A stretch of DNA of 64,000 bases from NCBI GenBank assembly GCA_000198515.1, contig FP929140.1:2702527-2766526 (forward strand), given 5' to 3'. Position 1 is the first letter of the stretch, and each line of letters opens with the position of its first letter. The translations under genes were made by a program, and so were the position numbers. Below, in pieces: positions 5,300-23,034 of this stretch. Under the pieces are notes generated by a model. It was given only the letters and a program-made list of their open reading frames with translations, was not told where the DNA came from and made no database searches. Source of the stretch: a gamma proteobacterium HdN1. GTDB taxonomy: Bacteria; Pseudomonadota; Gammaproteobacteria; Pseudomonadales; Ketobacteraceae.

Positions 5300-6850
5300 C
5301 TACCCTACCTGCTCTTCAACCTCAAAGCCCACAATATTCCGCGTATCCTTACTAAACTCCACCCCAATCAAATGCACCGGCCCATCGTTACGATACTTGT
5401 CCGCATAGGCGCGATCTTTGATCTGCTGTAGCGCCCGTCCTTCAGGCGCAAGCTCCACCACTTTGAATTCAAATAAATAGACGTGCCCTGCAAAGCGCAC
5501 AGTCATATCAATACGGCCGTGGTTGGTAGCGCCCTCCGTGGTAATGTCCAGCCCAAGTGCCGCGAAATGGCTGTAGAAAATGCTGGCCCAGTAGCCTTCG
5601 TATTGTGCGATGGGGCTATTTCGGTACCAATCGTGCGGAATGGTGGCGAAAAAGGCGTGGAAAAGGTCGCGCATGGCGGGAATATTGTTGGACAGCAATA
5701 TCTCGTACAGCCGGCTGATTTGAGGTTGTATAATCGCCAGCCCACCACATAGCTCCCCCAGCAATTGGTCGTGCAGGGCTGATTTCACTTCCATGTTTGG
5801 GAACCGTAAGGTGATGATGATACGCCCAGGAATAAATCGAGCATGATCAATCGTCACATAACCCGCCTGAAACATCAGCGCTTCTACGGGAATATTATCT
5901 ACGTCAAAGGTAGAAAGCAGGGCGTCTGAGGTGATGGATTTGCCAAGTTCGGGGGTGAATTGATGGCGTTTCGCGAGTAGCTTAATTAAAAAACTAGGCG
6001 TGCCAGTTTCAAACCACCAAGGGCGGAAGCTGCGATTACGAAATAGCAGAAGCAAATCAAATGGGTTGTAAACCGAATCGCCCAACCAATTGTAGCCGTT
6101 ATACCAGCGCTTGATTTCTTCACGATCCAGCCCCTCAAGCTCGGGTGCAAAAACACTGTCCACATCCTGATCGGTATAACCGCAGATGGCGCTGTATTCT
6201 GCGCTTAGTGTGATGTCTTCGAGGTTGTTCAGCCCGGAAAACAAGCTCACTTTGCTGAATTTGGAAACCCCAGTTAAGAATGCAAAGCGAATGTACGCAT
6301 CGTTGTCTTTGATCACCGAATAAAGATCTTTGAGCGCCTCGCGCATGGCAAGGGCGATTTCGCGGTCTTCGATTCGGTCGAGAATCGGTTTGTCGTACTC
6401 ATCCACTAGGATCACAACGCGCTGACCTGTGCGTTCAGCAAGGCGTATGATCAGGCGCCTGAAGCGGCTGCGTGCGTCGGGATATTCGGCGGGTAATCCA
6501 AAACCTTCTTCGAGGGTGCCAAGTTGCTCATCTAGGCTTCGCCCCAAATCCTCCACCGAAGCGAGCGACGCCCCGCCAAAGCTGATCCGAATCACCGGAT
6601 ACTTTACCGACCAATCCCAGTGCTTTTCGGCGTACAAGCCTTTGAACAAGGCTTCATTGCCTTCAAACAGCTCTTTTAGCGTGTCCAGAAACAGGCTTTT
6701 GCCGAAGCGGCGCGGGCGGGAGAGAAAAAAGTGCGTGCCTTGAGCGATTAGCCGCAGCGCCAGCGGGGTTTTATCGACGTAGTAGCAGGCGTCGTTTTCG
6801 CGGATTTTAGCGAAGGTCTGGATGCCGATGGGCAGGCGTTTGCGTTGCAT
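5300..6850 (-). CDS. AAA-ATPase-like / PD-(D/E)XK nuclease-superfamily protein
   Basis: 516 aa. The N-terminus matches the AAA-ATPase_like family (PF09820): LPIGIQTFAKIRE, YYVDKTPL, and a Walker A-like FLSRPRRFGKSLF. A Walker B-like VVILVDEYDKPI lies near residue 145. The C-terminus has the PD-(D/E)XK-like DUF1703 region, including GRIDMTVRFAGHVYLFEFK near residue 455. Such proteins are common, often multicopy, in Bacteroidetes and some Proteobacteria. Their role is unproven, with nuclease or mobile-element links proposed. It stands alone here, tail-to-head with the RsmB-like gene. The family call is secure; the function is not. Confidence 0.88.
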   Translation of the reverse strand: MQRKRLPIGIQTFAKIRENDACYYVDKTPLALRLIAQGTHFFLSRPRRFGKSLFLDTLKELFEGNEALFKGLYAEKHWDWSVKYPVIRISFGGASLASVEDLGRSLDEQLGTLEEGFGLPAEYPDARSRFRRLIIRLAERTGQRVVILVDEYDKPILDRIEDREIALAMREALKDLYSVIKDNDAYIRFAFLTGVSKFSKVSLFSGLNNLEDITLSAEYSAICGYTDQDVDSVFAPELEGLDREEIKRWYNGYNWLGDSVYNPFDLLLLFRNRSFRPWWFETGTPSFLIKLLAKRHQFTPELGKSITSDALLSTFDVDNIPVEALMFQAGYVTIDHARFIPGRIIITLRFPNMEVKSALHDQLLGELCGGLAIIQPQISRLYEILLSNNIPAMRDLFHAFFATIPHDWYRNSPIAQYEGYWASIFYSHFAALGLDITTEGATNHGRIDMTVRFAGHVYLFEFKVVELAPEGRALQQIKDRAYADKYRNDGPVHLIGVEFSKDTRNIVGFEVEEQVG

Positions 6851-8840: not shown

Positions 8841-10691
8841 TTAGCGGTTAGGTGGCATTCCCTCTACCCAAGTGCTCCATAGCTCCCACGTAACAGCAAA
8901 GGCGTCGCTTTCGCTGCGGATGTCGAAGCGCCAGCCCATTGGTTCGGTGCCAAAAATGCTGAATACGAATTCGACGCTGGATGCGGGCAGGATCACGGAC
9001 TGTTTGACTTGGCCGCTTTGGTCGCTGATACGGATGGTGGTGCCCAGTACGTTGGTGTTGCGGATCTTGAACCACATTGCCTGGCCGCCACGGACGTTGA
9101 GCGTTGCGTTGCCATTCCAGAGGCCGGAGGTGAGCAGCCGGAAGTTTTCCGGATTGCTGGGGGCTTCCATTGCCAGCGGTCGGCCGATGAAGTGCGAGAA
9201 GCTCTGCGCTGCAGGGGAGCTCATCCATGCGGGCAGGGCGGGGAGATGGGCGATGTAGATAGGCGCGCGCACGTTGCGTTCACGGGTTGCTAGGGTTGCC
9301 TGTTTTTCTTCGAACTGGCGGAAGGTTTCGGTGTATTGCGCGCCTCGGTTTGATGGCTGGAAGCTGGTCATGCCCTGTTCCCAAGGGTCATTGATGTAGA
9401 GGGTGGTGCCATCGGGTGTGCCATCGCCTCGGATGCCGGTGATCACGCGGATGTGTGGGCCGGGTTCGGCGCTGGCGACCCATAGCGGGCCGTAGCGTCG
9501 TAGGAGGTTGGCAAAGGCGCTGATCATGTAGCTTTGCGGCGGTTCGGGCACAAACCCCCAGACCTGCATGACCGATACGTCTTCGGGGTTCAGGCCGCTT
9601 TGGTACTGGGCCCAGTGGCCGCTGGCTCGGGCGATTTCTTCAGGGTTGATGCTGACTCGGTCGCGCCAGCCGACGATCATGGCAAAGCCTGCGGCCCAGC
9701 AGGACATGCCGGTTTGCTGCGGCACAAGTTCGACGTTATAACAGACGTCTAGCGTGTTGCTAAGTTGGCGGGCGCGCTGCTGTGCTGCAAGGGCGGCGGT
9801 GAAATCAGGGGGGTAGCTTCGTGAGAGTGCTGTGCTGGGAGTCGCCGCGTGGGATTGGCTACGCCCTAAGGAGCGGGCTCGCTGTTCGCTGCGGCCATCG
9901 GTTTGCCAATGCACGACTTGGATACGCATATAGCCGGTGCGGATGACTTCTTCCTCGTATTTGGGGATGAAAACGGCAATGGATTCTTCGTAGCGACGCC
10001 CGCCAGCGGGGTCGACAATTTTGAAGCAAGTGCCTTCGGGGGTGCCGTCACCGTAAATGCCGGTGATTATTCGGGCGTGGATGGCCCAGGCTTTGCCGGG
10101 CGCCTCGTCGGTGGTGACCCAGATCGGGCCGTAGTTGCGCAGCAGGGTTTCCCAGCCTTGGATGCTGTAGCTTTGTGGTGGCTCTGCGACTAATCCCGCA
10201 GTGGAGATGAAATTTACTTTGTCATCCCCTGAAAGCCCCGTATCGGCGCGGTAGAGGTCTAGCCAGCGCTGGCCGACGCTGGCAGTGGCCTGTTCAATCG
10301 TCATCCCGCGCTGGCTGCGCCAAGATTTTAGCATGGTGAATACGGTTGCCCAGCAGGCCATGCTGGAGGGTTGCGCGAGCACCTGAAACTCCCCGGGGAT
10401 ATCGTAGCGAATGCTGGTGAAGGCGCGGCTGTGCTTTGCGGTGCTGGAAAATCCTTGCGCTCTGGATTGCGGGCGCGTTGGCCAGCGTGAGACACGCGCG
10501 GAAAGCCCTTGTGCGGTGGCAGGGCGCGGGCCGGAGGCTGCGTTGCGCACCGGAGTAACAGTGGTAGTAGGCTGCGTAGAGGGTTGCATTTTTTGCAGGG
10601 AACTACGCATGCGGTTTTTATTGGCCGGTTTTTTGGCTCTCGCAGGGCGTTGGCCCACGGTTTGTTCAAGATCAGCCAGTCGGTTACTCAT
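8841..10691 (-). CDS. Protein with two tandem AvrRpt2/C70-type papain-like cysteine protease domains
   Basis: 616 aa from the ATG at 10691 (AGGTG 7 nt upstream; 8-bp overlap with the preceding stop). A ~100-residue Arg/Lys/Gln/Pro-rich leader precedes two homologous protease domains. Domain 1 has Cys113 in SSMACWATVF, His in WAIHARIITGIYGDGT and Asp in FKIVDPAGG. Domain 2 has Cys331 in GMSCWAAGFAMIVGW, His in PHIRVITGIRGDGT and Asp in LYINDPWEQG. Both keep a plausible Cys-His-Asp triad and the shared EPPQSY and YGP motifs of the papain-like family PF12385. A C-terminal ~130-residue domain looks like a beta-sandwich. There is no signal peptide. It is the last gene of the operon. Confidence 0.82.
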   Translation of the reverse strand: MSNRLADLEQTVGQRPARAKKPANKNRMRSSLQKMQPSTQPTTTVTPVRNAASGPRPATAQGLSARVSRWPTRPQSRAQGFSSTAKHSRAFTSIRYDIPGEFQVLAQPSSMACWATVFTMLKSWRSQRGMTIEQATASVGQRWLDLYRADTGLSGDDKVNFISTAGLVAEPPQSYSIQGWETLLRNYGPIWVTTDEAPGKAWAIHARIITGIYGDGTPEGTCFKIVDPAGGRRYEESIAVFIPKYEEEVIRTGYMRIQVVHWQTDGRSEQRARSLGRSQSHAATPSTALSRSYPPDFTAALAAQQRARQLSNTLDVCYNVELVPQQTGMSCWAAGFAMIVGWRDRVSINPEEIARASGHWAQYQSGLNPEDVSVMQVWGFVPEPPQSYMISAFANLLRRYGPLWVASAEPGPHIRVITGIRGDGTPDGTTLYINDPWEQGMTSFQPSNRGAQYTETFRQFEEKQATLATRERNVRAPIYIAHLPALPAWMSSPAAQSFSHFIGRPLAMEAPSNPENFRLLTSGLWNGNATLNVRGGQAMWFKIRNTNVLGTTIRISDQSGQVKQSVILPASSVEFVFSIFGTEPMGWRFDIRSESDAFAVTWELWSTWVEGMPPNR

Positions 10692-11901
10692 GGTGTTCAC
10701 CTGCGCTCGTGTCGGTGGAATCTGGGTGGATTGGGGCTGGGTGGATTGGATTGGGTTGGCTTGTGGGGGGCAAATTCGTGGGAGGCTGGGTCGCGCTGAT
10801 TTCTGCAAGTTCGGCAACCAGATCGAAATCATCCAGCTGCATAGGGGTGACGTAGGGATTGGCAAAGGGGCTTGCTTCCGCTGGCTGCGGCTGGATTGCA
10901 GGCGCAGCGCGCGTGGGTTCGAGGGCCTGTTCGAACTCGCGAAAACGCTCGTTCAGGTTCACCTTGCCAAGATCGAAGCTGTTGGCGTAGCGCATCGCGA
11001 GGCCCATCTGGTCAAAGATGTCGTGGCGCGATTGCAGCGGCGCGGTTTCTGGCGTGAGCGTGCCGGCTTGGGTTTGTGTGTCTGCTTGAGTTGGTGTAGT
11101 GGTCTGCGTGGGTGATTGTTGGGCGGGTGTGGGTTGGCCGAGGATGGCGGCAAGTTCGCGTTCGAACTCGTCTTTTGCAAGCGATAGCCCGGCATCCAGT
11201 TTGGCGGATGTGCCGCCGGTGCTTGGGGTGGATGCTTGGTTGAGCCATTGATTGCCGTCGTCGCTGATGGCGGGCACAGGCGGAGCGCTTGGCCATTGCG
11301 TCGCGTCGTTAGGGCGGGCTTCAGTGAGCTGCGGTGCAGGGATGAGCTTTGGTGCAGGGGCGAGCTGCGGTGCCAGAAACTCTGATTCGGTGAAGGCTTC
11401 TACTTGAAAACGCCCTGCATCAGGTGCGGAAAGCTCGGGTGTTAGTATGGCGGTTGCCGCAGATGGCAGGCGTTGTGCATATTGGTTTGCGCTGCCTGCT
11501 GGCCAGAGGCTGGCGGCGTAGGCTGTTTGTGCGGAAGGCCAGCCGGGAGCAGTAACAGAGGCTGTGGTTGGAGCCGTAGCGGGAGCGGGAGCGTTGATGG
11601 GGGCTGTTGGGGCGGCTGGCAATTGGTGATGATCGAGCCGCAGGGCTTGTCGGCGGGTGGTTTTGGCTTTTGGCGCGCTGCCTTGTAGTTGATTTTCTAG
11701 TGCGCGTAGGTTGCGGCCCAGCTGCGGGATCGTTCGGCCGCGAACGGCGTCGATCCAGCCTTGCAGCGTGTCTGGATCTGTGCCACTTGCAGCCGACGTT
11801 TTGGCTAAGGTTTGTGGGCGCTCTAGTGATCGCAGGCTTCTACCCATGGCGGATTCCTTTTTCTGGGCCGTATAACGGCGCGATTCGGTAACAAGGTTCA
11901 T
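10684..11901 (-). CDS. Uncharacterised Pro/Ala/Gln-rich operon protein
   Basis: 405 aa from 11901, where the ATG overlaps the previous stop by 4 bp. A second start at 11847 (MGRSLRSLE) has the better Shine-Dalgarno (AAGGA) and may be the true one. No family is recognised. Residues about 45-75 (LGRNLRALENQLQ, then Lys/Arg) resemble the leader of the next protein (NRLADLEQTVG, then Lys/Arg), so the two may share a short N-terminal coiled coil. The rest is largely disordered (Ala, Pro, Thr, Gln), with amphipathic patches such as ELAAILGQPT. It may be a scaffold or a substrate of the operon's proteases; that is inference. Confidence 0.6.
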   Translation of the reverse strand: MNLVTESRRYTAQKKESAMGRSLRSLERPQTLAKTSAASGTDPDTLQGWIDAVRGRTIPQLGRNLRALENQLQGSAPKAKTTRRQALRLDHHQLPAAPTAPINAPAPATAPTTASVTAPGWPSAQTAYAASLWPAGSANQYAQRLPSAATAILTPELSAPDAGRFQVEAFTESEFLAPQLAPAPKLIPAPQLTEARPNDATQWPSAPPVPAISDDGNQWLNQASTPSTGGTSAKLDAGLSLAKDEFERELAAILGQPTPAQQSPTQTTTPTQADTQTQAGTLTPETAPLQSRHDIFDQMGLAMRYANSFDLGKVNLNERFREFEQALEPTRAAPAIQPQPAEASPFANPYVTPMQLDDFDLVAELAEISATQPPTNLPPTSQPNPIHPAPIHPDSTDTSAGEHHE

Positions 11902-12659
11902 GATTGCAGGTTCAGTTGCATAACGGCGTAAGGGTCGAGCGCGATTGCGAGGGCGTTGTCTCCGGTTTTCAGAAATTCACGTGGTACGCGTAGCTGTAGT
12001 TTTTCTGCATCCGCATGGAGAATTTCCGCTTGGCGGTTGTTGACGATGGCAGCGGGGTAGTGGCTGCTTTTTTGGAGTACAAAATTTTCCCCGTGCAGCG
12101 TGAGTTCGACGGCTTCACCCTGTTCGTGAGCGCTGAGGGTGGATAGCTGAGGTGATAGTTTGCGGCGGCGTGCTTTGTTGATCAGGTTGGCGAGGTCGGA
12201 GTAATCCAGTGATTTTTCGCCGCCGGTTTTTTCTTGCACTACCTTTTTGAAATTTACGTTGCGGCTGTCGAGTTTTTCGAGGTCGCGTGCAGAGTTAACG
12301 CCTACTTTGCGGAGGCTGTCGCGAACTTCCTCGTCCATGTCGTCGATGGCGTCGAGGGATAAATCATTTCGGTCTGGAGGCTCATTGGCATTCTCGCGGA
12401 TTTGTCGGTCGGTGATAGAACCGAGCTGAAACGAGATTCGTGAGCCGCCTGATTCGCCAGGCTTGACCATCTGGAATTTTACTTTTCCATCCTCTAATAC
12501 GGGAAAGATATTCAAATCGAGGCCCACGTCTTTCACCGTGTAGGTGAGCCTACGTGTAAGGCCCTTTAATGAAAGGGTGTCCTGAGCTTTGTCGAGCTCC
12601 AGAATGAGCGAATCGAGGAATTGCTCAAGATTCCAAGCTTTGGTTTCGCGGCTGGTCAT
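11898..12659 (-). CDS. Operon protein with trypco2-like N-terminus, HhH-like segment and IPT-like C-terminus
   Basis: 253 aa; the ATG has GGAG 9 nt upstream and overlaps the preceding gene by 35 bp. Residues about 10-85 (LEQFLDSLILELDKA, strands, then VKFQMVKPG) have the pattern of the trypsin-co-occurring domain 2. That family was described from peptidase-centred conflict systems; the assignment is by eye only. Residues about 110-150 contain LRKVGVNSARDLEKL, a helix-hairpin-helix-like segment. The last 90 residues read as an IPT/TIG-like beta domain (LTLHGENFVL, QLRVPREFLKTGDNALAI). It is probably an adaptor linking the proteases to other components. Confidence 0.6.
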   Translation of the reverse strand: MTSRETKAWNLEQFLDSLILELDKAQDTLSLKGLTRRLTYTVKDVGLDLNIFPVLEDGKVKFQMVKPGESGGSRISFQLGSITDRQIRENANEPPDRNDLSLDAIDDMDEEVRDSLRKVGVNSARDLEKLDSRNVNFKKVVQEKTGGEKSLDYSDLANLINKARRRKLSPQLSTLSAHEQGEAVELTLHGENFVLQKSSHYPAAIVNNRQAEILHADAEKLQLRVPREFLKTGDNALAIALDPYAVMQLNLQS

Positions 12660-13071
12660 CGCCGGGCTCCGGAATAACGTCCACGTTTATGGGCGTGTCA
12701 GGTTTGGAGGAGGAAGTCCATTCGGCCTCTTCGTCCAGCGCAAGGTTTAGGCGAAGGCGGTGAAGTACGGGCTGCACCGAGGTTTCGATCCATTGCGTGG
12801 GCGGGGAGGTACCGAGAACAAGGTGTTGTTCGTGATCGCGCAGGGTTTGGATTTCCAACGGTAGTTCAAAATGGATGCTTTCTACGAATAGACCCATCTG
12901 GTGTTCTGGCGCGAGCGGATCTTCCGCGAGGATTAGTTGCGGGGTGAGCAGATCTTCCAGCAGTTCGGCCAACGCGGGAAATTGGTCTTCCGAGAGAACG
13001 GTCGCCACTGTAGATATGTCGTTATTGGCGCTGCTGCCGAGACTGTCGTATGAATCGAGGCTGGCATTCAT
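12625..13071 (-). CDS. Small acidic operon protein, unknown
   Basis: 148 aa with a strongly acidic composition. It contains a helical FPALAELLEDLLTPQL segment and a beta-rich centre (HFELPLEIQTL). No family is recognised. Its start overlaps the upstream stop by 4 bp and its 3' end overlaps the next gene by 35 bp, so it is translationally coupled. Unusual overlap and conserved-looking structure argue for a real gene. Confidence 0.6.
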   Translation of the reverse strand: MNASLDSYDSLGSSANNDISTVATVLSEDQFPALAELLEDLLTPQLILAEDPLAPEHQMGLFVESIHFELPLEIQTLRDHEQHLVLGTSPPTQWIETSVQPVLHRLRLNLALDEEAEWTSSSKPDTPINVDVIPEPGDDQPRNQSLES

Positions 13072-13322
13072 ATGGGCCGCCGAGAGCGTTGGAGTGAGGC
13101 GCTGGTTCGAAACTCCATTACGTTGTTGCGCGTGTCGTTGTGTGTGCTACTGCGTAAACGGTTGTGTGCGTTGCGGCGTGGCGTTTCGCTGGATTCGGTT
13201 TGTACCGGAAACAGTGTAGCCTTGTCGTTGAATTCAATCTCCATGCCTTCAAACTGGGCGCTGATATCGTCGCCAGAATCGCCGGAAAAGGGTCGTGACC
13301 ACGGGTGCAGGGGAGTGTTCAT
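13068..13322 (-). CDS. Small operon protein, unknown
   Basis: 84 aa, hydrophilic, with an acidic N-terminal half and an Arg/Asn-rich C-terminal half. No motif is recognised. It is tied to both neighbours by 4-bp ATGA-type overlaps, which is the main evidence that it is translated. Confidence 0.5.
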   Translation of the reverse strand: MNTPLHPWSRPFSGDSGDDISAQFEGMEIEFNDKATLFPVQTESSETPRRNAHNRLRSSTHNDTRNNVMEFRTSASLQRSRRPI

Positions 13323-15415
13323 GCTTGTATTACTCCTACAAAATGCAGCATGGCAGGCATCGGAAACTGCACGCGCTCTTCACCTAGCGAGCCAATATTG
13401 CCGTGTTCGTTGGCTTCATTGGCACGCACGAGGATTAAGGTTTGCAGCTTGAATTCGGGAAATACCCATAGCGATGCCGTTTGTCCAGGGCGGCCGCGAA
13501 TTTGGCCTTGGTGTCGCGCCGCTTGGTTGAAGCGTTCGACAAAACTGGGTGAAGCCAGTGCGGAGAGTAATTTGTCTTCCAGCACCGCTTGATCTGGCGC
13601 GAGGCGGGTAATGAGGTGGTTGAGAGAATATAGGCTGTATTGGTAGCCGCTCTTGATGCGCAGGGTTTCTCTGGGGCCTTCTTGTTCGCTGCGCACGTCG
13701 GTATCCATGCGGGCATTACGCGAGCGTTCGGGGTTCAGGGTAAGGTAGTAGCGCGTTTGCAGGTCTACGCGGCGAGTTTCACGATCGAAAGTAGTTTCCC
13801 AGATCTGGTGCCAGTAATCGCGCCACGTTTCTCGGTTGGAGAGGGCAATTAGATCGCTCGATTCTTCCACTCGGTCGAACTGGTATTCGCTCATTAAATG
13901 GATGCTGTGCTGGATGGAGGTTCCGCGCAGCTGACGTTTGGCGTTTTTCCAGAGTAGGGTGAGCACCACAATGTAGTCGCGGTGAGGGGCTAGTGATGCG
14001 CATATTTGTGCCTCAATACGAGGGATTATTTCGATCGGCCCGTTGCCAACTGTTCCCAGCGCTTCGCTAGCTTCGTGGACAATGCGCAGAGTATCTGCCT
14101 GTTTGACCTGAATCATCAGTTCGGCATCGTTGATCGTTTGTGGGGTAGCGACCGAGAGCGGAAATTGCAGTGCGACACCGTGTTGGTAGAGTGCGGTTTC
14201 GCGCCCGGCGATTACCTGCGTTCTCACATCCTCTACCTGTAACTGTACGCTGGAAACCCGCTTGTAGTTACGGTGCCGAGGCGTGGCCATGCCGAGGCTC
14301 ATTCCGGCGAGCAATTGGTGGAGCGCGGCATCGTCAACGCCTGGGTTGAGGGCCCTTAGGTGTTCGTTGAGCTGCTGGTCTGCTTGAAGTCCTAGGCGGG
14401 CAAAATCAGTAATGCCGTTGATGATCTGCCCCGTCATCCGCTGGGGCGCATCAATCACGCTCTGAATGGTCTGCGGTGAGAGCACCTGCTGGAGGAGTGG
14501 CATGAGCGCGGGCAGCGCGGCAAGTAGCGCAGGCGCCACTTGGGCTTGGCTGTACTGGACGTGCGTTCTTGACAGAGATTGTGCTCTGGTTTGAGAACCG
14601 GAAGGCGATGGCGGCTGCACGTTATTGCCTGCCTGAACCAACTGCATCACTTGCCGTATGTTTTCTGGGGTGAGAATTTGTTGGGCTGCGGGCCCAAGTG
14701 CGCGCAGTACCTGTTCGGCCAGCGCACCGAGAGAAGAGATCGCGGTTTGCGCGCTAGCATCGGGTGCAGGAAGGCTCCGTAGCAGGTTGCCTGCCGCCTG
14801 TCCGACGGCGGGCGCCGCGCCCGAAATCAGCGAGCCAATGGCCGGCGCAAGCATCGGTAGGAGGTTCGGCAATGCGCCAAGAATTGCCTGCAGGAACATC
14901 GGTTCGCTTAGGCGCCGCTCACGCAGCCGAAAGGGCACATTATCGACTTGCTGTGTGGCGGCTACCGGAATTGTGTTCATGCTCGTAGCGTTCATACGTG
15001 TAGCCCTTGTAATGTATTCGGGTGGCGGTAATTCCTGTGTGGGGGGAGTGGTTTGGTACATTTCTCGCTCTCCATCCCGCATTAAAAAATCCGCCGTTGC
15101 CGGCAGTTCGCTCACCGCAGAAATGGCAGGCCCGCTGCCATCAGGCTCGCGGTAACTGCTGATCTGCAGCCAGCGAGATTCCCGCGTAATTTCACTGGCG
15201 GGAATCCGGAACTCGCCTCTCCCCATCTTTTCTGGGCCCAGTGGCCCGATCATCTCTGAGCGTCGCTTTACGTCGGCCAGTGCAGGTAGGCCGTTACGGG
15301 TCAGCGTTTCTTCGCCGCCGAGCTGCCAGCGCAGATAGCGGTTTTTGCCAATATCAAACCGAACTTCGATACCCTCCGGCGTTGATTCCAGCGCCAGAAC
15401 CAACGCCAGCGCCAC
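13319..15415 (-). CDS. Large operon protein with hydrophobic central helices, unknown
   Basis: 698 aa from a GTG start with AGGA 9 nt upstream, directly after the previous stop. Three parts are visible. Residues 1-110 form a beta-rich domain (EVRFDIGKNRYLRW). The centre (about 165-360) has two similar amphipathic stretches, LGALPNLLPMLAPAIG and LLAALPALMPLLQQVL, each followed by a TPENIRQV or SPQTIQSV segment; this looks like an internal duplication that could insert in membranes or oligomerise. The C-terminal ~320 residues are mixed alpha/beta and end in FPEFKLQTLILVRANE. No enzyme motif or signal peptide is seen. It is the largest protein of the operon and a likely structural core. Confidence 0.65.
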   Translation of the reverse strand: MALALVLALESTPEGIEVRFDIGKNRYLRWQLGGEETLTRNGLPALADVKRRSEMIGPLGPEKMGRGEFRIPASEITRESRWLQISSYREPDGSGPAISAVSELPATADFLMRDGEREMYQTTPPTQELPPPEYITRATRMNATSMNTIPVAATQQVDNVPFRLRERRLSEPMFLQAILGALPNLLPMLAPAIGSLISGAAPAVGQAAGNLLRSLPAPDASAQTAISSLGALAEQVLRALGPAAQQILTPENIRQVMQLVQAGNNVQPPSPSGSQTRAQSLSRTHVQYSQAQVAPALLAALPALMPLLQQVLSPQTIQSVIDAPQRMTGQIINGITDFARLGLQADQQLNEHLRALNPGVDDAALHQLLAGMSLGMATPRHRNYKRVSSVQLQVEDVRTQVIAGRETALYQHGVALQFPLSVATPQTINDAELMIQVKQADTLRIVHEASEALGTVGNGPIEIIPRIEAQICASLAPHRDYIVVLTLLWKNAKRQLRGTSIQHSIHLMSEYQFDRVEESSDLIALSNRETWRDYWHQIWETTFDRETRRVDLQTRYYLTLNPERSRNARMDTDVRSEQEGPRETLRIKSGYQYSLYSLNHLITRLAPDQAVLEDKLLSALASPSFVERFNQAARHQGQIRGRPGQTASLWVFPEFKLQTLILVRANEANEHGNIGSLGEERVQFPMPAMLHFVGVIQA

Positions 15416-15418
15416 GGT

Positions 15419-16540
15419 TTATCTTCCTACGGCAGGCGCGGCGGGTGCAGCAATGGCCGGAGCCGGCACGCCCGCTCCTACCTGCTGGGAAGGCCCGAGC
15501 CGTGCACCACCATCGTTGCCGCCTTGATAGAGGGCTGCAAAATTGTCGAGTTTGAAATAATCGGATTTGAAGGTGATGTCTACGGAGCCGGTGACTTTTG
15601 CAGCCAGTTCCGTGTTCGCAACACTCTTTGCGCTGGACACGGAAATTTTCGACTTACGTGAACTGTTCGTCATGCCGCCTTTTGGCCCACCAAAAATAGC
15701 GCCGATCAAGCCGCCGCTCGCGCTTATGCTGTTGCTGGAGGATTTCAGCTCTTGCAGCGCGGCTTTGTCGGATTTTTGCACCTGCTCTGAAGCTTTAATA
15801 TCAAAAAGCACCGAAGCCTTGACGTTGCCTTTTTCGACCACGAGACGGGTAATTCCCATCAGGATGGTTTCACGCAGCATGGCACGTTGTTCTTTGGCCA
15901 TCTGGATTTTGGCATCCATGATGCGTGCCTTGATCTGGTTGTCCCCCAAATCTACAGGCGCGCCGCTACTATCAGTGAGCTGTAGTTTTTTGGAGCCATC
16001 GTCGTTTTCTTCGTCGCTGAAAGAAAGGCCAAACTCATCGCTATTATTTTCTGCCAGATAGCCAAATGACGCGGCATCGTCGATGGCGTTAATGAATTTG
16101 GATACCGATTGTGTGGCTGCCTTCAGTAGCTTTTGGTAGGACTCCATTTGCGCAAGGGTGACCTGTAAATTGGCGTCAAACACGCCTTTCAGCAAGTCTT
16201 TTACAAAGCCTGGAAAATCTACCTCGTCGATAAAGCCGCCGGCCAACTCGCCCGCCTGATCAATACGCTGGTTTTTGTGGCGGCTATTGTCAATCATGTC
16301 GCTGGCTTTTTTAGGGTCTGCAAATGCGTGGCTCTGTAACCCTTGTTGGTTGGATCGAGATACACCTTTCCCGTTACTAGAGGCATGGTTGTGCTGCGAG
16401 AGTTGTTGGTAATTCTGACGGTACACGTCAAGATATAATGCCTTTTGGTCGTCCATACCCAGTTGGTGAAAAGTCGAGGATTGCGCTAGAGTTCTGCGCG
16501 TATATTCCTTTGCTAAATCGCTGATGGCCGAATCGCTCAT
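15419..16540 (-). CDS. Uncharacterised operon protein, helical
   Basis: 373 aa from the ATG at 16540, which has GCGGAGAA about 9 nt upstream; the longer frame from 16645 overlaps the previous gene and lacks a comparable site. The N-terminal half is helical and charged, including GFIDEVDFPGFVKDLLKGV and a coiled-coil-like KARIMDAKIQMAKEQRAML. Then come VKASVLFDIKASEQV, a Gly/Ser stretch, VTGSVDITFKSDYFKL and an Ala/Pro/Gly-rich tail. The family is not recognised and there is no signal peptide. The 64-bp gap before it is the largest inside the operon. Confidence 0.62.
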   Translation of the reverse strand: MSDSAISDLAKEYTRRTLAQSSTFHQLGMDDQKALYLDVYRQNYQQLSQHNHASSNGKGVSRSNQQGLQSHAFADPKKASDMIDNSRHKNQRIDQAGELAGGFIDEVDFPGFVKDLLKGVFDANLQVTLAQMESYQKLLKAATQSVSKFINAIDDAASFGYLAENNSDEFGLSFSDEENDDGSKKLQLTDSSGAPVDLGDNQIKARIMDAKIQMAKEQRAMLRETILMGITRLVVEKGNVKASVLFDIKASEQVQKSDKAALQELKSSSNSISASGGLIGAIFGGPKGGMTNSSRKSKISVSSAKSVANTELAAKVTGSVDITFKSDYFKLDNFAALYQGGNDGGARLGPSQQVGAGVPAPAIAAPAAPAVGR

Positions 16541-16604
16541 GAATGGGTTCTCCGCAGTAAAAGGCGCAAATCGGGTAGGGACGCAATTGAATAGCCGTGA
16601 AATA

Positions 16605-17813
16605 TTAGAAGTCGTCGTTTTCAGAATCGGCGAATTCTTCCTCATCGGTCATCTCGTCCCTCATTTCCATTTCTTCGCCAGAGGCGTTGGTGAAATTCAG
16701 GATGTAAGATTCGGCGGCCTGCAAGAAATTAACGAAATCTTCCTGCCGGATTGAGGCTTCGTTAAAATTGGCAATCCAGACAAAGATGCGATTGCCGTCC
16801 ACTGCAAGCGAACGGTGCGCGCCGATATTGGGGGATGCGCCAAATTCCTCTTTGGACAGGCGTTCGATGACCGTCCACAAACTTTTGCGACGATTGCCGC
16901 CAAAGTAGGACATAATCTCGTCGTCTTTGAGAATTTCGAAGCACTCTTGCAGCTGGGCGTAGAATTCCCGCGCTTGGACATGCGCCATGCCGGTGCAGTA
17001 TTCCGTAAGGTTGTATTGCAACTCTCGGGTTGCCTGATAAATTCGGGAACGCGAAACTGGCGAAGACTCGCCCATGCCTTCTTCCACGCGCTCGGTCTTG
17101 TCGATGTACTCGGCAACTTCGGCCATCAGGTTGTGCCATAGTTGTGGGAATGGATCGTTGACGACCATGCGTGACAGTACTTCAGTTTCGCCCTTGCTCA
17201 ATACGCGACGGTATACCATGCCGCGTTCTTCAGCAGAGGCACGCTCCTCGCGTAACTTCCAATAACGGTACAGGCGAGCTGCGGCGGGCCCTTCCACTAC
17301 GTCGATGGAGCCAGAGGCCCAGTTCAGCACAAGCGCATCTACTAGATTGAACACTCCCAGACGTTCGCCAAATTCAAAGATATAATCCAGCGCGCCGGCA
17401 GCAAGAATATTGTCTTTGACGATGCCTTGTTCTTCGACTTCCGAGAAATCATCTACGCTAAAATCCCACTGCCCGAAGCCGCGGCCACCCCCTTTGCGCC
17501 GCGCGGCATCCAGTGGATCATCTTCCCCCGAAGCTGTACTGATCGCGTAGTCGTAGGCGAGCGCAAAATGTTCGTCGTAGCCACCGGCTCGGAGTTTGTC
17601 CACATCCTCAATCTGCACGCCGCGATCTAGCAGATAGTCAATCATCGCGGTCTTGACTTCTGGCGTGAAGCGGGTTTTGTCGATCTCGCTGTTTTCGATG
17701 TAGATTTCCAGCAGGGCAGGGAGCTGACCTTGTTCGTTAACCGATTTGATCAACTTGAGCACCGCAGCCTCAAGTGCCCCGTTAGAAAGCCCAATTTTGC
17801 TTGTGCCTGACAT
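16605..17813 (-). CDS. Uncharacterised operon protein, all-helical, acidic tail
   Basis: 402 aa, predominantly helical. It has a Gly-rich RRKGGGRGFGQWDFSVDDFSE region near residue 110. Towards the C-terminus it has a conserved-looking SLAVDGNRIFVWIANFNEASI segment and then a very acidic tail (Glu/Asp repeats). No known family. AGGAAA lies about 8 nt before the ATG. The helical body with an acidic tail is compatible with a protein-protein scaffold or chaperone-like partner of the co-encoded proteases. Confidence 0.62.
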   Translation of the reverse strand: MSGTSKIGLSNGALEAAVLKLIKSVNEQGQLPALLEIYIENSEIDKTRFTPEVKTAMIDYLLDRGVQIEDVDKLRAGGYDEHFALAYDYAISTASGEDDPLDAARRKGGGRGFGQWDFSVDDFSEVEEQGIVKDNILAAGALDYIFEFGERLGVFNLVDALVLNWASGSIDVVEGPAAARLYRYWKLREERASAEERGMVYRRVLSKGETEVLSRMVVNDPFPQLWHNLMAEVAEYIDKTERVEEGMGESSPVSRSRIYQATRELQYNLTEYCTGMAHVQAREFYAQLQECFEILKDDEIMSYFGGNRRKSLWTVIERLSKEEFGASPNIGAHRSLAVDGNRIFVWIANFNEASIRQEDFVNFLQAAESYILNFTNASGEEMEMRDEMTDEEEFADSENDDF

Positions 17814-17848
17814 GGTCTTAGTTTCCTATCTGATCAAAGAGCTCTGAA

Positions 17849-18451
17849 TCAAAGGGCTGCGCGTACTTGGTAAGCCACCAAGTCGCGTAGAACGTTGTCA
17901 GCGGCGAAGTCGATCCGGTGCTTGGCGCCCACCAATTTGACGACCTCTTTGGAGAACACGTCCAGCGGGCCGTTTTCGCGCTCCAATTCAAAGAGCACTG
18001 CTTCGGCAAATCCGGTTTCATCCTTTATTTCCTGATCGGCATCGTTGCAGGAAAGCAGGGTGTTTAGTAGGTAGGGATAGACAAGCGCCAAAACGACCCG
18101 CTTGTTTTCGCTAATTCGCTGGCGGTTCAGGCGTTTGGTCACGCGGTCGATTTCTGTGGCGTAGCCTTTGCTGGAAATCAGTTTTCGCAGCGCCGATTCA
18201 TTGGCAGAGAAGGTCTGTTTGACCTTGGCAAGCGCAAGCTCTGCAATTGGGTCTAGCTTTATGCTGCGCGTGGTAATGCGTAGTAGATTGCTTTCCGCGC
18301 CGGGGCGATTTTTGTCGATTAGCTTTCCCCAAACTGGTTTTAAGTCGCCGAAATCCAGCGCTTTTCCTGCGTTTGGGGAAGTCGTTGCCGCGGGTGTTGC
18401 CGGCTGATTGGTGGCAGGTTCGGCTTTTTTCTTATCATCAATAATGGCCAT
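17849..18451 (-). CDS. Uncharacterised operon protein
   Basis: 200 aa from the ATG at 18451, with GGGAG 7 nt upstream; it overlaps the end of the subtilase gene by 14 bp. A 35-residue Ala/Pro/Thr linker follows the N-terminus. The rest is helical and basic (VTKRLNRQRISENKR, then DVFSKEVVKLVGAKH). No family is recognised. Second gene of the operon. Confidence 0.62.
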   Translation of the reverse strand: MAIIDDKKKAEPATNQPATPAATTSPNAGKALDFGDLKPVWGKLIDKNRPGAESNLLRITTRSIKLDPIAELALAKVKQTFSANESALRKLISSKGYATEIDRVTKRLNRQRISENKRVVLALVYPYLLNTLLSCNDADQEIKDETGFAEAVLFELERENGPLDVFSKEVVKLVGAKHRIDFAADNVLRDLVAYQVRAAL

Positions 18452-19757
18452 GATCGGCTCCCGTTTGGCGGAGTTTGAAATCAAGGTAACGCATGGCATC
18501 GGCGAGGTTCAGTCGCCCATAGCCCGCTTTGCGGTGTTTAAAGTTGCGGTCGAGTTTGTCGCTGGTATGTTTGAGGACGTGTTTCGCTTGCGCATCGGAT
18601 AGCGAGCGGCCTTGCTCGCGGGCACGGGATTTCAGCAAGGCAATGCCGCCGCTGACAAATGGCGCGGCGTGAGAAGTTCCCGTAGAAAACGCGTAGTCAC
18701 CGTCAAGCCAAGTGCTGTAAACATCTACGCCAGGCGCGATAAACGACACTTGGTCGCCGTAGGTGGAAAATTCTGCGACTTCTCCCTTGTGATCCATTGC
18801 GCCTACCGCGATCACGCTTTCAAAAGCGCCGGGATAATACATTTCCTGTTGTCCATCATTTCCGGAGGCGGCGACAATCGTAACGCCCTTCCTGTGTGCG
18901 TAATCAATGACTTCCTGATGGGGGAGGCCGCCGCCCTCGTGGCGAACACCCAAGGACATGTTAATCACGTCGGCCCCCTGATCCACTGCATACTTAACGC
19001 CCGCGTTGATATTTTCGATTAAACCAGCACCCATGCGGCGGCCCTCCTTTTCCATTGCGGCGAGCACTCTCACAGGAATCAGCCTGCACTCTGGGGCGAC
19101 ACCGCGCGGCATGTTACGGCCTTTTCCGACCACGATGCCCGCTACATGGGTGCCGTGGCCTACTTCGTCTTCGGCGCTGCCGTCTGCGTCAATGAAATCT
19201 CCGATAAATTTCGCCGCATCATCCAGAATGTTCACAAAGTCGTAGCCGTCACGGAGGGCGTGCACAAGTTCTGGGTGTGCCAAGTCGATTCCTGTGTCCA
19301 GTACGGCAATCGTTATGCCTCTGTCTCCAGTAGTAAATGCTTGCGCTTCATTGAGATAGATTGCGTCTCTGGAATTTCTGTCGGTGCGAACGCTAAGGGG
19401 AAGGCTGCGTGGAGCAAGCTCTACTTGGCCGATTCTTCCGGGCGTTACCTGCTCAATTTCAGGTACAAGTTGAAGATCATCAATCAGTGCCTGAGGAACT
19501 TGCCCGTTGCGTGTCAGAACCAGCCGGTAGACACGATCCAAGCCACTTGCAATTTCCTCCGCAGACCATTGATGTGAGTTTGCAGGGTGGTATTCACGGG
19601 TCGCCAGCACAGGAACGTGGTGGCGCAGAAAAATTCGGTCAGTGGCCGGCGTAAAGTGCTCGCGTTCAAGGCTGCGATCCCGAAGCAGCGCCTGCCAATG
19701 CGGGAATTGCTCCAGCGGCAGTGCCTGATGCAGTTTTATGCGGATGAGGTTTTTCAT
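18438..19757 (-). CDS. S8 subtilisin-like serine protease without signal peptide
   Basis: 439 aa. All catalytic elements are present: Asp154 in AVLDTGIDLAHP, His201 in GHGTHVAGIV, oxyanion Asn300 in AASGND, and Ser362 in STGTSHAAPFVSGG. Residues 1-130 form an N-terminal extension, possibly an inhibitory prodomain, that lacks a hydrophobic signal sequence. The enzyme is therefore predicted to be cytoplasmic or to leave by another route, which is unusual for subtilases. It is the first gene of the ten-gene operon, so it is probably processed or activated together with its products. Confidence 0.9.
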   Translation of the reverse strand: MKNLIRIKLHQALPLEQFPHWQALLRDRSLEREHFTPATDRIFLRHHVPVLATREYHPANSHQWSAEEIASGLDRVYRLVLTRNGQVPQALIDDLQLVPEIEQVTPGRIGQVELAPRSLPLSVRTDRNSRDAIYLNEAQAFTTGDRGITIAVLDTGIDLAHPELVHALRDGYDFVNILDDAAKFIGDFIDADGSAEDEVGHGTHVAGIVVGKGRNMPRGVAPECRLIPVRVLAAMEKEGRRMGAGLIENINAGVKYAVDQGADVINMSLGVRHEGGGLPHQEVIDYAHRKGVTIVAASGNDGQQEMYYPGAFESVIAVGAMDHKGEVAEFSTYGDQVSFIAPGVDVYSTWLDGDYAFSTGTSHAAPFVSGGIALLKSRAREQGRSLSDAQAKHVLKHTSDKLDRNFKHRKAGYGRLNLADAMRYLDFKLRQTGADHGHY

Positions 19758-20083
19758 TCACGAGTCCGTTTCCGGTCCTTGAACAGGCGAGCGTGCGGTG
19801 AGGGAGGCAAATTGCATTCCACCTTCGCCTTATTTGGGAGTTGCTTTGTGTTTTTAAGAAGTTAGGAACGGTTCTAAGAGTGGGTGTGAACTATTGTGGG
19901 GTTGGAGTGGGGAAGAATTTACCCGCCAAAATAACGGCAAAAAACCGGGCTGCATTCGACTGAAAGCACTGTATACCGTGTCAGGCCGAGTGTTGCGCTC
20001 GGGGGCTGATAACGAAAGGTATGAGGGGTGTGGGTGGGTAATAGATAGCCCAGGTGGGTCTTTTGTTGGGGGAGTTACGAAAA
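19758..20083. other. Upstream region of the subtilase operon
   Basis: About 325 bp without a convincing gene. It should contain the promoter of the minus-strand operon, but no clear sigma-70 or sigma-54 hexamers stand out. It ends at the left copy of the activator-gene repeat (20084), which marks the edge of the decayed island. Confidence 0.5.
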
Positions 20084-20178
20084 AATCCAGAATCGTCTCC
20101 CCTGATCAAGCGCAACCGCACCCTAGGCCATGCTTTTTTACCAATCTTCCGAATGCGCGTCGCTTGAGTAATATTGCC
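20084..20178. repeat. Left direct-repeat copy: degenerate 3' end of the sigma-54 activator gene
   Basis: These 95 bp align to 25872-25989, the last codons and downstream spacer of the intact activator gene. There are about five mismatches and one 23-bp deletion here, which shifts the frame. Orientation is the same in both copies. In translation the NITQA helix of the Fis-type HTH is still readable before the frameshift. Confidence 0.88.
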
Positions 20179-20445
20179 AATCGAAGTATGGTTCGTCAGC
20201 GGGTGGGGCCGAATATCTATCGGAAAGCCATGCTGGAATACTGGGATGGCACATGTGCCGTTACTGGTATAGCCATACCGGAAATGCGTCGAGCATCCCA
20301 TGCGTTGCCTTGGGCAGAATGTAGTAGTGATGCGGAACGTTTGGATGTGTTTAATGGGTTCTTGCTGGCAGCTAACCTTGACGCTCTCTTTGATTAGCCA
20401 CGCTTCAAAAGAAAAAATCCATTTTTTGGGGATAGCTATTATGTC
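20179..20445 (+). pseudogene. HNH endonuclease (HNH_2 type) C-terminal fragment, frameshifted
   Basis: The plus frame reads YRKAMLEYWDGTCAVTG, RRASHALPWAE, ERLDVFNGFLLAANLDALFD and then TAG. This is the HNH_2 domain with its Cys, His, His and Asn signature, as found in restriction-type HNH nucleases. In the +1 frame the expected continuation appears as LISHASKEKIHF. The junction CTCTTTGATTAGC suggests a short deletion between two TTTGAT repeats. The N-terminal part is absent because the sequence abuts the left repeat at 20178. It is non-functional as it stands. Confidence 0.8.
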
Positions 20446-20477
20446 TAGCTTCCTCCTTTTGCACAAAGGTAGCAGAA

Positions 20478-20558
20478 ATGTCCAGCAACACCAAAGAAGC
20501 CGAACGCGCCAAGCTACACAGAGCTATCCGGCGCATCGCCAATTATCTGTGTGGGTAG
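20478..20558 (+). pseudogene. Type I restriction methylase hsdM 5' remnant
   Basis: Only 26 codons remain from the ATG at 20478 to TAG at 20558. The peptide (KLHRAIRRIANYL near its end) aligns with the very conserved HsdM N-terminus, which typically reads ELHKxIWxIANDLRG. The match ends exactly where GSVDGWDFK would follow. A weak purine-rich site precedes the ATG. It indicates that a type I restriction-modification locus once stood here. Confidence 0.68.
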
Positions 20559-20596
20559 TTGGGGCAGCGACATGGGGTGTTATTTGAGTTCTGCAC

Positions 20597-21905
20597 ATGT
20601 CACTACTTGATCAGCTTCCGCGACTGTCTGCATATGACCCCGGTGCTGCAGGAGAAGGCGGACTCGACCCGCTTGGCCTTAGCGCAGTAGCAGACCGCAT
20701 TGCCGACATATTAGTACCCGGTCTTCGTGCTCGAATGAGTCAGCCCCGTTTCGTTACGCTCTCCGCCGTAGGCGCGTTCGCTTGTCAGACGCTTCACGAC
20801 ATAACGGCTGATGAAGGCAAGACGACTGCCGACATTGCGTTCGAGTGGATCGTCGTTGAAGCCCTCATTCGAAACCCTCATTCGAAACCCTGGGGCTGGC
20901 CGCACTGATGGGGTTCCGGGCAATCAGAAGGCTCAACGTGCAAAAGCGGCTGGGAAAAGGTTGAGCCGCAGAACATACCTCAGTGGCCCGCGCGTATTCG
21001 GCTTCACTGGTGTTTATCGTCCATTTTCGCGGGATGTAAGTGTTCTTACGCTCGATGACCGACCGGGCCCCAATGCCGATCGGCTGGTCGAGGCTTGGGA
21101 GCGTGACTGGAATCTTCCCGGATATGCTGGGGGGATCACAGGAACCGTTGGCTGCAATCTTCGCACCGAAATCACGAAAGTCTGCAAGGAGACTTTGGTA
21201 AGAGGGGAATGCGCTGCGCCCCCGACGGGCTCGTTGCTCCGTAAGCTCTCCGATACCCTCGCGCCTCGCGAAGCCGGAAAGCACGAGCGCAGAGTTCTCC
21301 GTGACCTGATCACTACCGGAGAGCACGAGATCCGCAACGAACTCACCACCAAGCTAATCGCCGATCCGCCTCAGGCAGACATATCGCAACGAGAGTTGGC
21401 GTCTCGGCTCATGAACGGAGTCAGCCTGTCAACATACCGTGCATTACAGGCTGCATTTGCTTACGAAGAAGCGGCGACTGCGCTGGATAACTGTTTCCGC
21501 AGATTCCTTGCTCATGCCACCAACCAGCACGGTTCAGTCATCAGCCCCGTGGATGCGCTAAAGACCTCCGGACTGGAAGACCTTGCAGGCAAAATCGGTG
21601 TTCTCGCTCAACGTGCCATTGATTCAGTAGCAGAGTTGGGTGATGACAGTCTCAGTCTCGATACGGTAAATGTTCTTTCACCATTTGCACCCAAGTTCAC
21701 CGCCAAACAGTTCTTCGATTGCCTCACAGCGCGACATGATTCAGTGCAGTTGGCGAAGCAGAAGCTCTCCTGGCTTGATCAGATCGATGGCGATTGGACA
21801 GTGCGTACGCCGTACCGGAACCAGGACGGTCAACTCGACGACGCGACTTGGACACATCCCATGCGCCTTGTCACTCTCGCCAACTTTTTCCGGTGGACTA
21901 CATGA
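20597..21905 (+). pseudogene. First gene of the PLD/SNF2 operon, broken by a 13-bp tandem duplication
   Basis: The frame from 20597 (MSLLDQLPRLSAYDP) terminates at 20908. The second half is open in another frame to 21905. Removing one copy of CCCTCATTCGAAA (20862-20874 or 20875-20887) joins the halves as VVEALIRNPGAGRTDG and gives a single 431-aa protein. No family is recognised; the first half is Leu/Ala-rich and helical, the second has HNLRTEITKV-like and alpha-helical segments. It is followed by PLD with a 4-bp ATGA overlap, so the reconstructed gene belongs to the operon. The change could be a true null, a reversible slip, or a sequencing error. Confidence 0.75.
20862..20887 (+). repeat. 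13-bp tandem duplication causing a frameshift
   Basis: CCCTCATTCGAAA occurs twice in direct succession. One copy restores the frame of the surrounding 431-codon gene; two copies give a premature stop 7 codons later. Confidence 0.9.
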
Positions 21906-22666
21906 AGCCGTCACCACTGCTCGACTTCTGGCAGAAACCCGACGGAGCCGGGGAATCGGTGGCGATATTCGCGACGACCTTTGCCCTTGAGCCGGACTTC
22001 TTCGAGCAAAACTGCCTCGCCCGCTTCCTTGAAGTCTCTAGTGTCAATGAAGACACCGGTTCGGTTGATGACATTGTCGCCAGTGTTGAGCTGCATGAAC
22101 TACTCCAGAAAACCAATGTGACCGTGCTTGCCGATCGAAGTGCGCCGGTTCAACGCACATCGCTGCTCTGGGATTTGCTCAGCTGCAAGGTCGACGGTGC
22201 GCTGCTGCACGCAAAGGTCGCTGTACTGCTTTGGGAGAATGCGACGCGGGTGATCTTGGGCTCCATGAACCTCACCTCAGCCGGATACCGCAGACAGATC
22301 GAACTCGGGCTGGCAGCTGACCTGGGCCCAGATTGTCTTTTCTCGCAGGACGTTCTGCATGGAATCCAGCGCGAACTTGCCTCTTACTTGGAACTGATTC
22401 CGGGCTATAACGTAACTTCGCCGGTGTTCGCTCGTGCTAGAGAAACACTGGAGATTTTCGGCAGGCGAATCGACGATCAACGGGACGCAAAATCGACGGT
22501 GCGAGTTACCTTTGCGCCTGCTAATGCAGCAGAAAAGCCACTCGAGCGACTCAGTGAGGTATGGGTGGGCGGACAGCCGTCAATCGCCACTCACCTATCG
22601 CCGTTCTCGATCCACTCAAGCGTCTGGAAGTTCACGGCTCGCTACTACGCAGAGGACGTGAACTAG
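21902..22666 (+). CDS. Phospholipase D-like nuclease-family protein
   Basis: 254 aa from the ATG at 21902, which overlaps the preceding stop in ATGA; the ORF is open further upstream but in the previous gene. The core has one PLD motif: LLHAKVAVLLW, then ILGSMNLTSAGYRRQIELG, giving the H-x-K and GSxN-type signature. An upstream FATTFALEPDFFE segment resembles the N-terminal PLD fold. With one motif it would act as a homodimer, as in Nuc/BfiI-type enzymes. It is operon partner to the SNF2 helicase. Confidence 0.82.
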   Translation: MKPSPLLDFWQKPDGAGESVAIFATTFALEPDFFEQNCLARFLEVSSVNEDTGSVDDIVASVELHELLQKTNVTVLADRSAPVQRTSLLWDLLSCKVDGALLHAKVAVLLWENATRVILGSMNLTSAGYRRQIELGLAADLGPDCLFSQDVLHGIQRELASYLELIPGYNVTSPVFARARETLEIFGRRIDDQRDAKSTVRVTFAPANAAEKPLERLSEVWVGGQPSIATHLSPFSIHSSVWKFTARYYAEDVN

Positions 22667-23034
22667 CAGCATCTTTGAGTGCAATGCAGGGGCGTCTCGA
22701 GCGTCAAGTCATTACGCTTGAGGCACTCAATGCCCGGCTGACCGGCCCGCTTGGCCCTAAGTTCGTAGCCACCAAGGTTGCCGATGCATATGAAGCACAA
22801 GAACAGTCTCGACCAGAGGCACTGTTCACTGTCGCAGAAATTGCGCTAACTGTTGGCCGGGTCAATTGGCAGCATGTTGTTGAGCATATCGACAAAAATC
22901 GTGGCATTGCGCTCATCGCCAGAACCCTGGAGCAACTCGCAGGTGTTCGTAGCCGTATTGGCGATGAGCCTGCAGATATGGCTGCATATGCCGATCGTGC
23001 AATCAAGGAGGCTAGCCAGTGGCTAACGGCCTAA
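22561..23034 (+). CDS. Small helical protein between PLD and SNF2 genes
   Basis: 157 aa, overlapping the PLD gene by about 105 bp and the helicase by 16 bp. It is mostly helical with LKRLEVHGSLLRRGRELA and LEQLAGVRSRIGDEP segments and no recognised family. The ATG has GAGG directly before it, too close for an ideal site, so the true start could be downstream. The conserved-looking amphipathic pattern and the gap it fills argue that it is a real member of the operon. Confidence 0.6.
   Translation: MGGRTAVNRHSPIAVLDPLKRLEVHGSLLRRGRELAASLSAMQGRLERQVITLEALNARLTGPLGPKFVATKVADAYEAQEQSRPEALFTVAEIALTVGRVNWQHVVEHIDKNRGIALIARTLEQLAGVRSRIGDEPADMAAYADRAIKEASQWLTA

Follow-up and report, generated by a model that had tools for sequence, protein, structure and literature searches.

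What might a run of ten genes do that opens with a subtilase, closes with a double papain-like protease and has eight proteins without a family in between? The question is raised by an operon of the gamma proteobacterium HdN1, located at 8841-19757 of a 64,000-nucleotide stretch (the window; contig FP929140.1, positions 2,702,527 to 2,766,526) of its 4.59-Mb single-contig genome. We found that this operon, whose ten tightly packed open reading frames (ORFs) A to J all lie on the minus strand, belongs to a multi-gene system conserved in six phyla, in which a protease and structural-looking proteins make up a fixed core, and the genes after H are exchanged between loci and share an N-terminal tag. 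Subtilase A comes first and the double C70 protease J last, and the ORFs and Pfam agree with the single-strand operon proposed earlier from the letters alone. Among A-J, Pfam matches above cut-off were restricted to A (Peptidase_S8) and J (Peptidase_C70). Proteins B-I, described as without a family, indeed had no match above cut-off in Pfam, NCBIfam or PADLOC, and the latter two contributed nothing for A-J beyond generic subtilase matches. Gene starts were revised using ribosome-binding (Shine-Dalgarno) sites and homologues (B, 18451; D, 16540; I, 11847; J, 10691). With these starts adjacent genes overlap by 4-35 bp or sit at most 64 bp apart, as the coupling of the genes had been described; 4-bp overlaps are present at E/F and F/G, but one at H/I would require I to start at 11901, and the start at 11847 is better supported. 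Nothing meaningful was found in the way of DNA repeats inside the operon.

Evidence that the genes form a unit comes from other genomes. A gammaproteobacterial relative (G007/Ch67) carries all ten genes, and on a Tolypothrix plasmid A, C, D, E, G and H keep their order; D is 87% identical to its Ch67 homologue and 42% identical to that of Tolypothrix. A scan of GTDB genomes with a D profile yielded 40 loci, 28 of them of the main type, from Pseudomonadota, Thermodesulfobacteriota, Acidobacteriota, Cyanobacteriota, Bacteroidota and Planctomycetota. Conserved synteny had been set beforehand as the test that could refute the system, and the order A-[B]-C-D-E-G-H-I on one strand was identical in 28 of 28 main-type loci, judged as far as each contig extends. 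The identities of D and the identical gene order confirm that the array is a real operon and not a chance succession of ORFs. We found no description of it in the open-access papers searched, and the data support an undescribed conserved multi-gene system.

The system is rare and patchily distributed: in a sample of 398 genomes from the phylum only HdN1 itself has it, and a sample of 97 relatives gave three, a count that includes HdN1 and one spurious match. A match of E in G078 (L005/L007; L numbers denote loci) was discarded as spurious, there being no neighbour genes. In a maximum-likelihood tree of D, members from Acidobacteriota and Thermodesulfobacteriota stand beside proteobacterial ones with strong support, contamination of metagenome-assembled genomes being possible for some members; this placement is consistent with horizontal spread of the system. 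A viral origin was rejected: no homologue of D was found in phage records or viral contigs and none of J in phage records, and the viral-model matches of E were to generic Ig/Fn3 folds only. A PHROG tape-measure match of E (8e-5) was taken as compositional because it covers the Ala/Leu/Pro-rich low-complexity middle of the protein.

The C70 protease had been read as one of two matched core proteases. Instead, the C70 gene is not core and fills an interchangeable slot after H. Full-length homologues of J are found in L010, L013 and L021, and C70 domains in the slots of L012, L015, L016, L017, L023 and L035. Other occupants are C92 (L012, L018), a GH24 lysozyme and glucosaminidase (L023), Extensin-like (M15-type; L017), Amidase_2 (L016, L017), M15_4 (L023), PG_binding (L016, L036), Ntox11 (L032, L034) and protein-arginine deiminase (PAD; L027, L028). 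Many of the exchanged enzymes are of cell-wall-cutting types. J itself passes the PF12385 cut-off (342 bits versus 19), and each of its two domains shows the catalytic Cys, His and Asp. C70 is counted among the lytic domains of phage enzymes (PMC8310338) and the C70 protein EvpQ is an effector of a type VI secretion system (T6SS; PMC7991086), so C70 here may act on peptidoglycan or on proteins. Counterparts of I in other loci are fused to enzymes; in cyanobacteria the enzyme part follows an acidic, tagged region that resembles I. The HdN1 genome yielded no second protein of the I type.

Proteins of the slot have in common a short N-terminal tag of the approximate form NRLxxLExxL, often with basic residues after it. 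This tag, which is common to I and J and was absent from the sequence-only reading, we rate as the strongest clue to the system. J has MSNRLADLEQ, and I has MGRSLRSLERPQ and a second copy. A strict regular expression for the tag misses the window, and a scored matrix was used instead, built from eight tags of five loci (window, L013, L016, L017, L035) and applied for the test to the other loci only. With these seed loci left out, the tag was present in 20 of 43 genes after H versus 3 of 285 other ORFs (p=2.9e-17); when one locus per lineage was counted, the numbers were 7 of 21 versus 2 of 143 (p=6e-6). Many tags lie directly at starts backed by ribosome-binding sites. The tagged cyanobacterial PADs are encoded at L027:18509-21010 and L028:17521-20655, a context that goes unmentioned in the paper on PAD origin (PMC8826395). 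Mobile elements are also seen in this part of the operon, with an IS701 transposase immediately after H in a Tolypothrix plasmid (L008:18692-20002) and, in Symploca, an IS605 TnpB that separates H from I (L027:15392-16648).

We also examined the constant proteins for features that bear on function. The B profile matches residues ~10-280 of C proteins of 567-679 amino acids in 16 loci (E 1e-28 to 1e-46), and these B-C gene fusions suggest that the products of B and C act together. In several cyanobacteria a protein with a peptidoglycan-binding domain is encoded between A and C, and in many a larger variable gene takes the position of F. Throughout the family, polar and apolar residues take turns along both strands of the D hairpin (median contrast 4.0-4.1; control median 1.04, control 99th percentile 4.4), and the loop between the strands is Gly-rich in most members; the pattern suits a membrane-inserting hairpin and also a one-sided buried sheet. 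The C-terminal beta region of E is well predicted by AlphaFold2, and its structure matches were to generic Ig-like/arrestin-like folds and nothing else. Because the D hairpin is amphipathic and conserved and the middle of E is hydrophobic, the models suggest a possible membrane-breaching step. The hydrophobic character earlier ascribed to E is thus borne out and, with the multidomain H, is consistent with a complex. Matches of H to TIG (6 of 34 members, best 9.3e-5) and to alpha-CTD were weak, and its assignment to Trypco2 (PF19631) was rejected (one of 34 members, E 0.069, under cut-off). Profile searches against solved structures with D, E and H as queries gave nothing significant, and Foldseek and VIA on D and E brought out no outstanding family, a known fold still being possible. 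None of the products A-J shows a convincing signal peptide or transmembrane helix, and the core proteins have no strong transmembrane segment.

Subtilase A retains an intact D/H/S triad, whose motifs are present in most homologues, and its N-terminus is not signal-peptide-like, as had been noted. Its best NCBIfam profile is the mycosin of the type VII secretion system (T7SS), but at 202.5 bits A does not reach the TIGR03921 equivalog cut-off of 278.75 bits, and we rejected this assignment. A also resembles the PatA/PatG cyanobactin proteases by profile. PADLOC recognised no known anti-phage defence system in the operon; A alone matched, to generic subtilase/IetS models, with no IetA-like partner among A-J. 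BTAD or LuxR-type regulators are encoded just upstream of A in some loci (L014:4934-5851; L018:4892-5890; L016:5572-6222).

A protease-gated complex, perhaps a conflict device, as proposed in the sequence-only reading, is plausible; gating by A we infer solely from its constant presence. We give about an even chance to the idea that the operon encodes a horizontally spread, protease-associated platform at which tagged effectors dock and from which they are deployed. A-E, G and H would form the apparatus, and I, J and their counterparts elsewhere would be cargo docking through the short N-terminal tag, with I probably also serving as an adaptor. A would process or release the cargo, and the amphipathic hairpin of D and the hydrophobic middle of E would let it cross or breach a membrane. 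The cargo would then act on its target, here as a double C70 enzyme and elsewhere as peptidoglycan hydrolases, Ntox11 or arginine deiminase. Several observations weigh against this proposal. In several lineages (L014, L015, L018, L023, L036), some of which have visibly related N-termini, the tag matrix gives weak scores or none. Neither an ATPase nor an export channel nor any recognised structural fold turned up, and the model of D is of low confidence. No immunity gene was recognisable beside the effectors in the loci read, where many genes have no assignment. In addition, the target of C70 may be proteins rather than peptidoglycan.

The same parts could serve programmed or abortive lysis of the producer, with infection or stress activating A, the tagged enzymes being freed from an inactive complex, D and E opening the producer's own inner membrane, and the wall or proteins being degraded. 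We consider this possible but somewhat doubtful. It is a serious rival because there are no recognisable immunity genes and no visible export route; the lack of secretion signals, the regulators upstream in some loci and the HNH and SNF2-helicase genes adjoining the window operon also fit it, as do published conflict systems in which proteases are paired with lysozyme and papain-like effectors that act on peptidoglycan (PMC7159879). However, PADLOC detects no system, the core is without a recognisable sensor, NTPase or nucleotide-signalling domain, and the several different wall enzymes of some loci (L016, L017, L023) are seemingly more than self-lysis needs. Because wall enzymes of several specificities are combined with generic toxins, we slightly favour action on another organism over lysis of the producer. 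Rather unlikely, in our estimation, is a new class of non-contractile, ATPase-free protein delivery particle, in which C, D, E, G and H would self-assemble, D would form an oligomeric beta-barrel pore, tagged effectors would be loaded, A would carry out maturation, and wall- or protein-attacking enzymes would be brought into other cells.

Two further explanations draw on systems that are known. The tagged proteins might be cargo of a secretion system encoded elsewhere, with A-H as accessory chaperones for T6SS effectors, which are often peptidoglycan hydrolases. EvpQ and a T6SS-type VipB pair in the genome speak for this, but the VipB genes lie 1.2 Mb from the operon, the multi-gene core far exceeds known effector-chaperone sets, and many cyanobacteria, as well as a mobilizable cyanobacterial plasmid, carry the system too; we regard this explanation as improbable. 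Least probable is a metabolic operon or one for maturation of ribosomally synthesized and post-translationally modified peptides, with the proteases as processing enzymes. The profile resemblance of A to PatA/PatG and a weak Trp_DMAT match of one sister-system protein (described below) would fit, but neither a precursor peptide nor a tailoring enzyme was recognised in the operon by Pfam or NCBIfam, and the proteins that bear the tag are large enzymes having toxin or hydrolase domains.

The operon follows the logic of EAD-coupled conflict systems or of the loading signals of extracellular contractile injection systems (eCIS), but its parts are different. In System 3 of Kaur et al. (2020), trypsin/S8 proteases and NucA are combined with effectors recruited by EAD1 (PMC7159879). 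Both systems have proteases and variable effectors, among them lysozyme and papain-like enzymes for peptidoglycan, that are linked through a common adaptor, but the core families here have no assignment, the tag is a short motif and not a domain, and membership was rejected on finding no NucA endonuclease, trypsin core or EAD1 adaptor among the ten window proteins by Pfam. As in eCIS (Afp/PVC; PMC11297309, PMC11495950), diverse toxins with an N-terminal loading signal go with a multi-gene core that is conserved; for eCIS, no specific conserved sequence of the signal was detected, whereas the present tag does have one. In contrast to eCIS, the operon lacks a tube, a spike and an AAA ATPase, and the genome has no Phage_sheath_1 (PF04984). 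Among A-J, Pfam and PHROGs gave no sheath, tube or spike (the low-complexity tape-measure match of E aside), and VipB occurs in the genome only at 1.50 Mb. A contractile injection system (eCIS/T6SS) was thus rejected for the locus, in line with the earlier view. Polymorphic toxin systems (Zhang et al. 2012, PMC3482391) likewise have interchangeable enzymes, including Ntox11, papain-like and peptidoglycan-cleaving domains, and the common tag with variable domains behind it corresponds to their constant N-terminal region with variable C-terminal toxins. The operon differs in that no known trafficking domain is present and that the Zhang survey mentions no subtilase. No immunity gene was recognised among the many unassigned genes of the loci read, and no known secretion signal was seen in the effectors. 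With T7SS mycosins and PatA/PatG, A shares profile similarity, but it falls below curated cut-offs and lacks a transmembrane segment or signal peptide, and no ESX or cyanobactin partners are present in the operon.

A diverged sister operon was found in L037-L049 and on the Burkholderia pyrrocinia plasmid pBPJTT (L050:10796-26536), its hosts otherwise being Xanthomonas, Ramlibacter, Roseateles, Nevskia and Thiodictyon. Its gene order is J-D-G-H-A-C-x-D-D-C-D, with four D and two C paralogues, and E was not detected in it. The sister J combines C92 and C70, in some cases also with trypsin or amidase, and has a longer common N-terminal region without family assignment (DRFxxLGFTVR...RGEAVFLVPPxVL) in place of the short tag. 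One protein of the sister operon has weak similarity to Trp_DMAT (prenyltransferase). A patatin phospholipase and an adenylate cyclase-AAA-TPR protein adjoin the Burkholderia operon (L050:5967-10564).

Table. Features of the operon in window coordinates (AF2, AlphaFold2; pLDDT and pTM, its confidence scores; aa, amino acids; RBS, ribosome-binding site).
Feature	Position	Strand	Basis
A, subtilase (S8), first core gene, without signal peptide	18438..19757	-	Pfam Peptidase_S8, E=1.2e-52
B, core protein; elsewhere its homologue forms the N-terminal part of fused B-C proteins	17849..18451	-	B profile
C, most conserved core protein, C-terminus acidic	16605..17813	-	90%/49% identity to Ch67/Tolypothrix homologues; profile matches in 38 loci
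D, core protein, N-terminal helices and predicted long amphipathic beta-hairpin with Gly-rich loop	15419..16540	-	AF2 pLDDT 67.7, pTM 0.38
D hairpin, predicted strand 1, aa 237-254	15779..15832	-	AF2 model and strand alternation
D hairpin, predicted strand 2, aa 307-326	15563..15622	-	AF2 model and strand alternation
E, large core protein, beta-sandwich at N-terminus, hydrophobic middle modelled with low confidence, long-stranded beta-sandwich region at C-terminus	13319..15415	-	AF2 pLDDT 71.1; 28 loci
F, small protein, closest relatives only	13068..13322	-	gene comparison
G, small acidic core protein	12625..13071	-	24 loci; weak sister-system homologue, best E 2.5e-6
H, core protein, conserved N-terminal domain, HhH/RNAP-alphaCTD-like middle, TIG-like C-terminus	11898..12659	-	37 loci
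I, Pro-rich, disorder-prone, adaptor-like, tagged, C-terminal 'HxxFDxxG...ANSFDLG...RFxEFD' block	10684..11847	-	alignment; ATG start, AAAAGGA upstream
Tag in I, GRSLRSLERPQT	11809..11844	-	matrix; RBS-supported start
Second tag-like copy in I, RNLRALENQL	11686..11715	-	alignment
J, occupant of effector slot, with tag, two papain-like C70 domains and further C-terminal region of ~120 aa	8841..10691	-	Pfam Peptidase_C70, two stretches, E=2.8e-103
Tag in J, SNRLADLEQTVG	10653..10688	-	matrix; RBS-supported start
J C70 domain 1	9954..10415	-	E 1.3e-49
J C70 domain 2	9348..9761	-	E 5.1e-53

Beside the operon, divergent plus-strand genes at 19894-25757 of the window encode an HNH_2 endonuclease, three ORFs without assignment and a SNF2/DEAD helicase, which together look like a small restriction or defence cluster. 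Downstream, at 5300-6850, a protein with AAA-ATPase_like and PD-(D/E)XK nuclease domains is encoded.

These data add a multi-gene system that is conserved across six phyla, and its defined tag makes the effector repertoire searchable. They would also give a context to the PAD genes of the two cyanobacterial loci in which PAD is a tagged effector. Should the system deliver proteins, its mechanism would be a new one, without relation to phage tails; should it lyse the producer, it would represent a new protease-triggered death programme.
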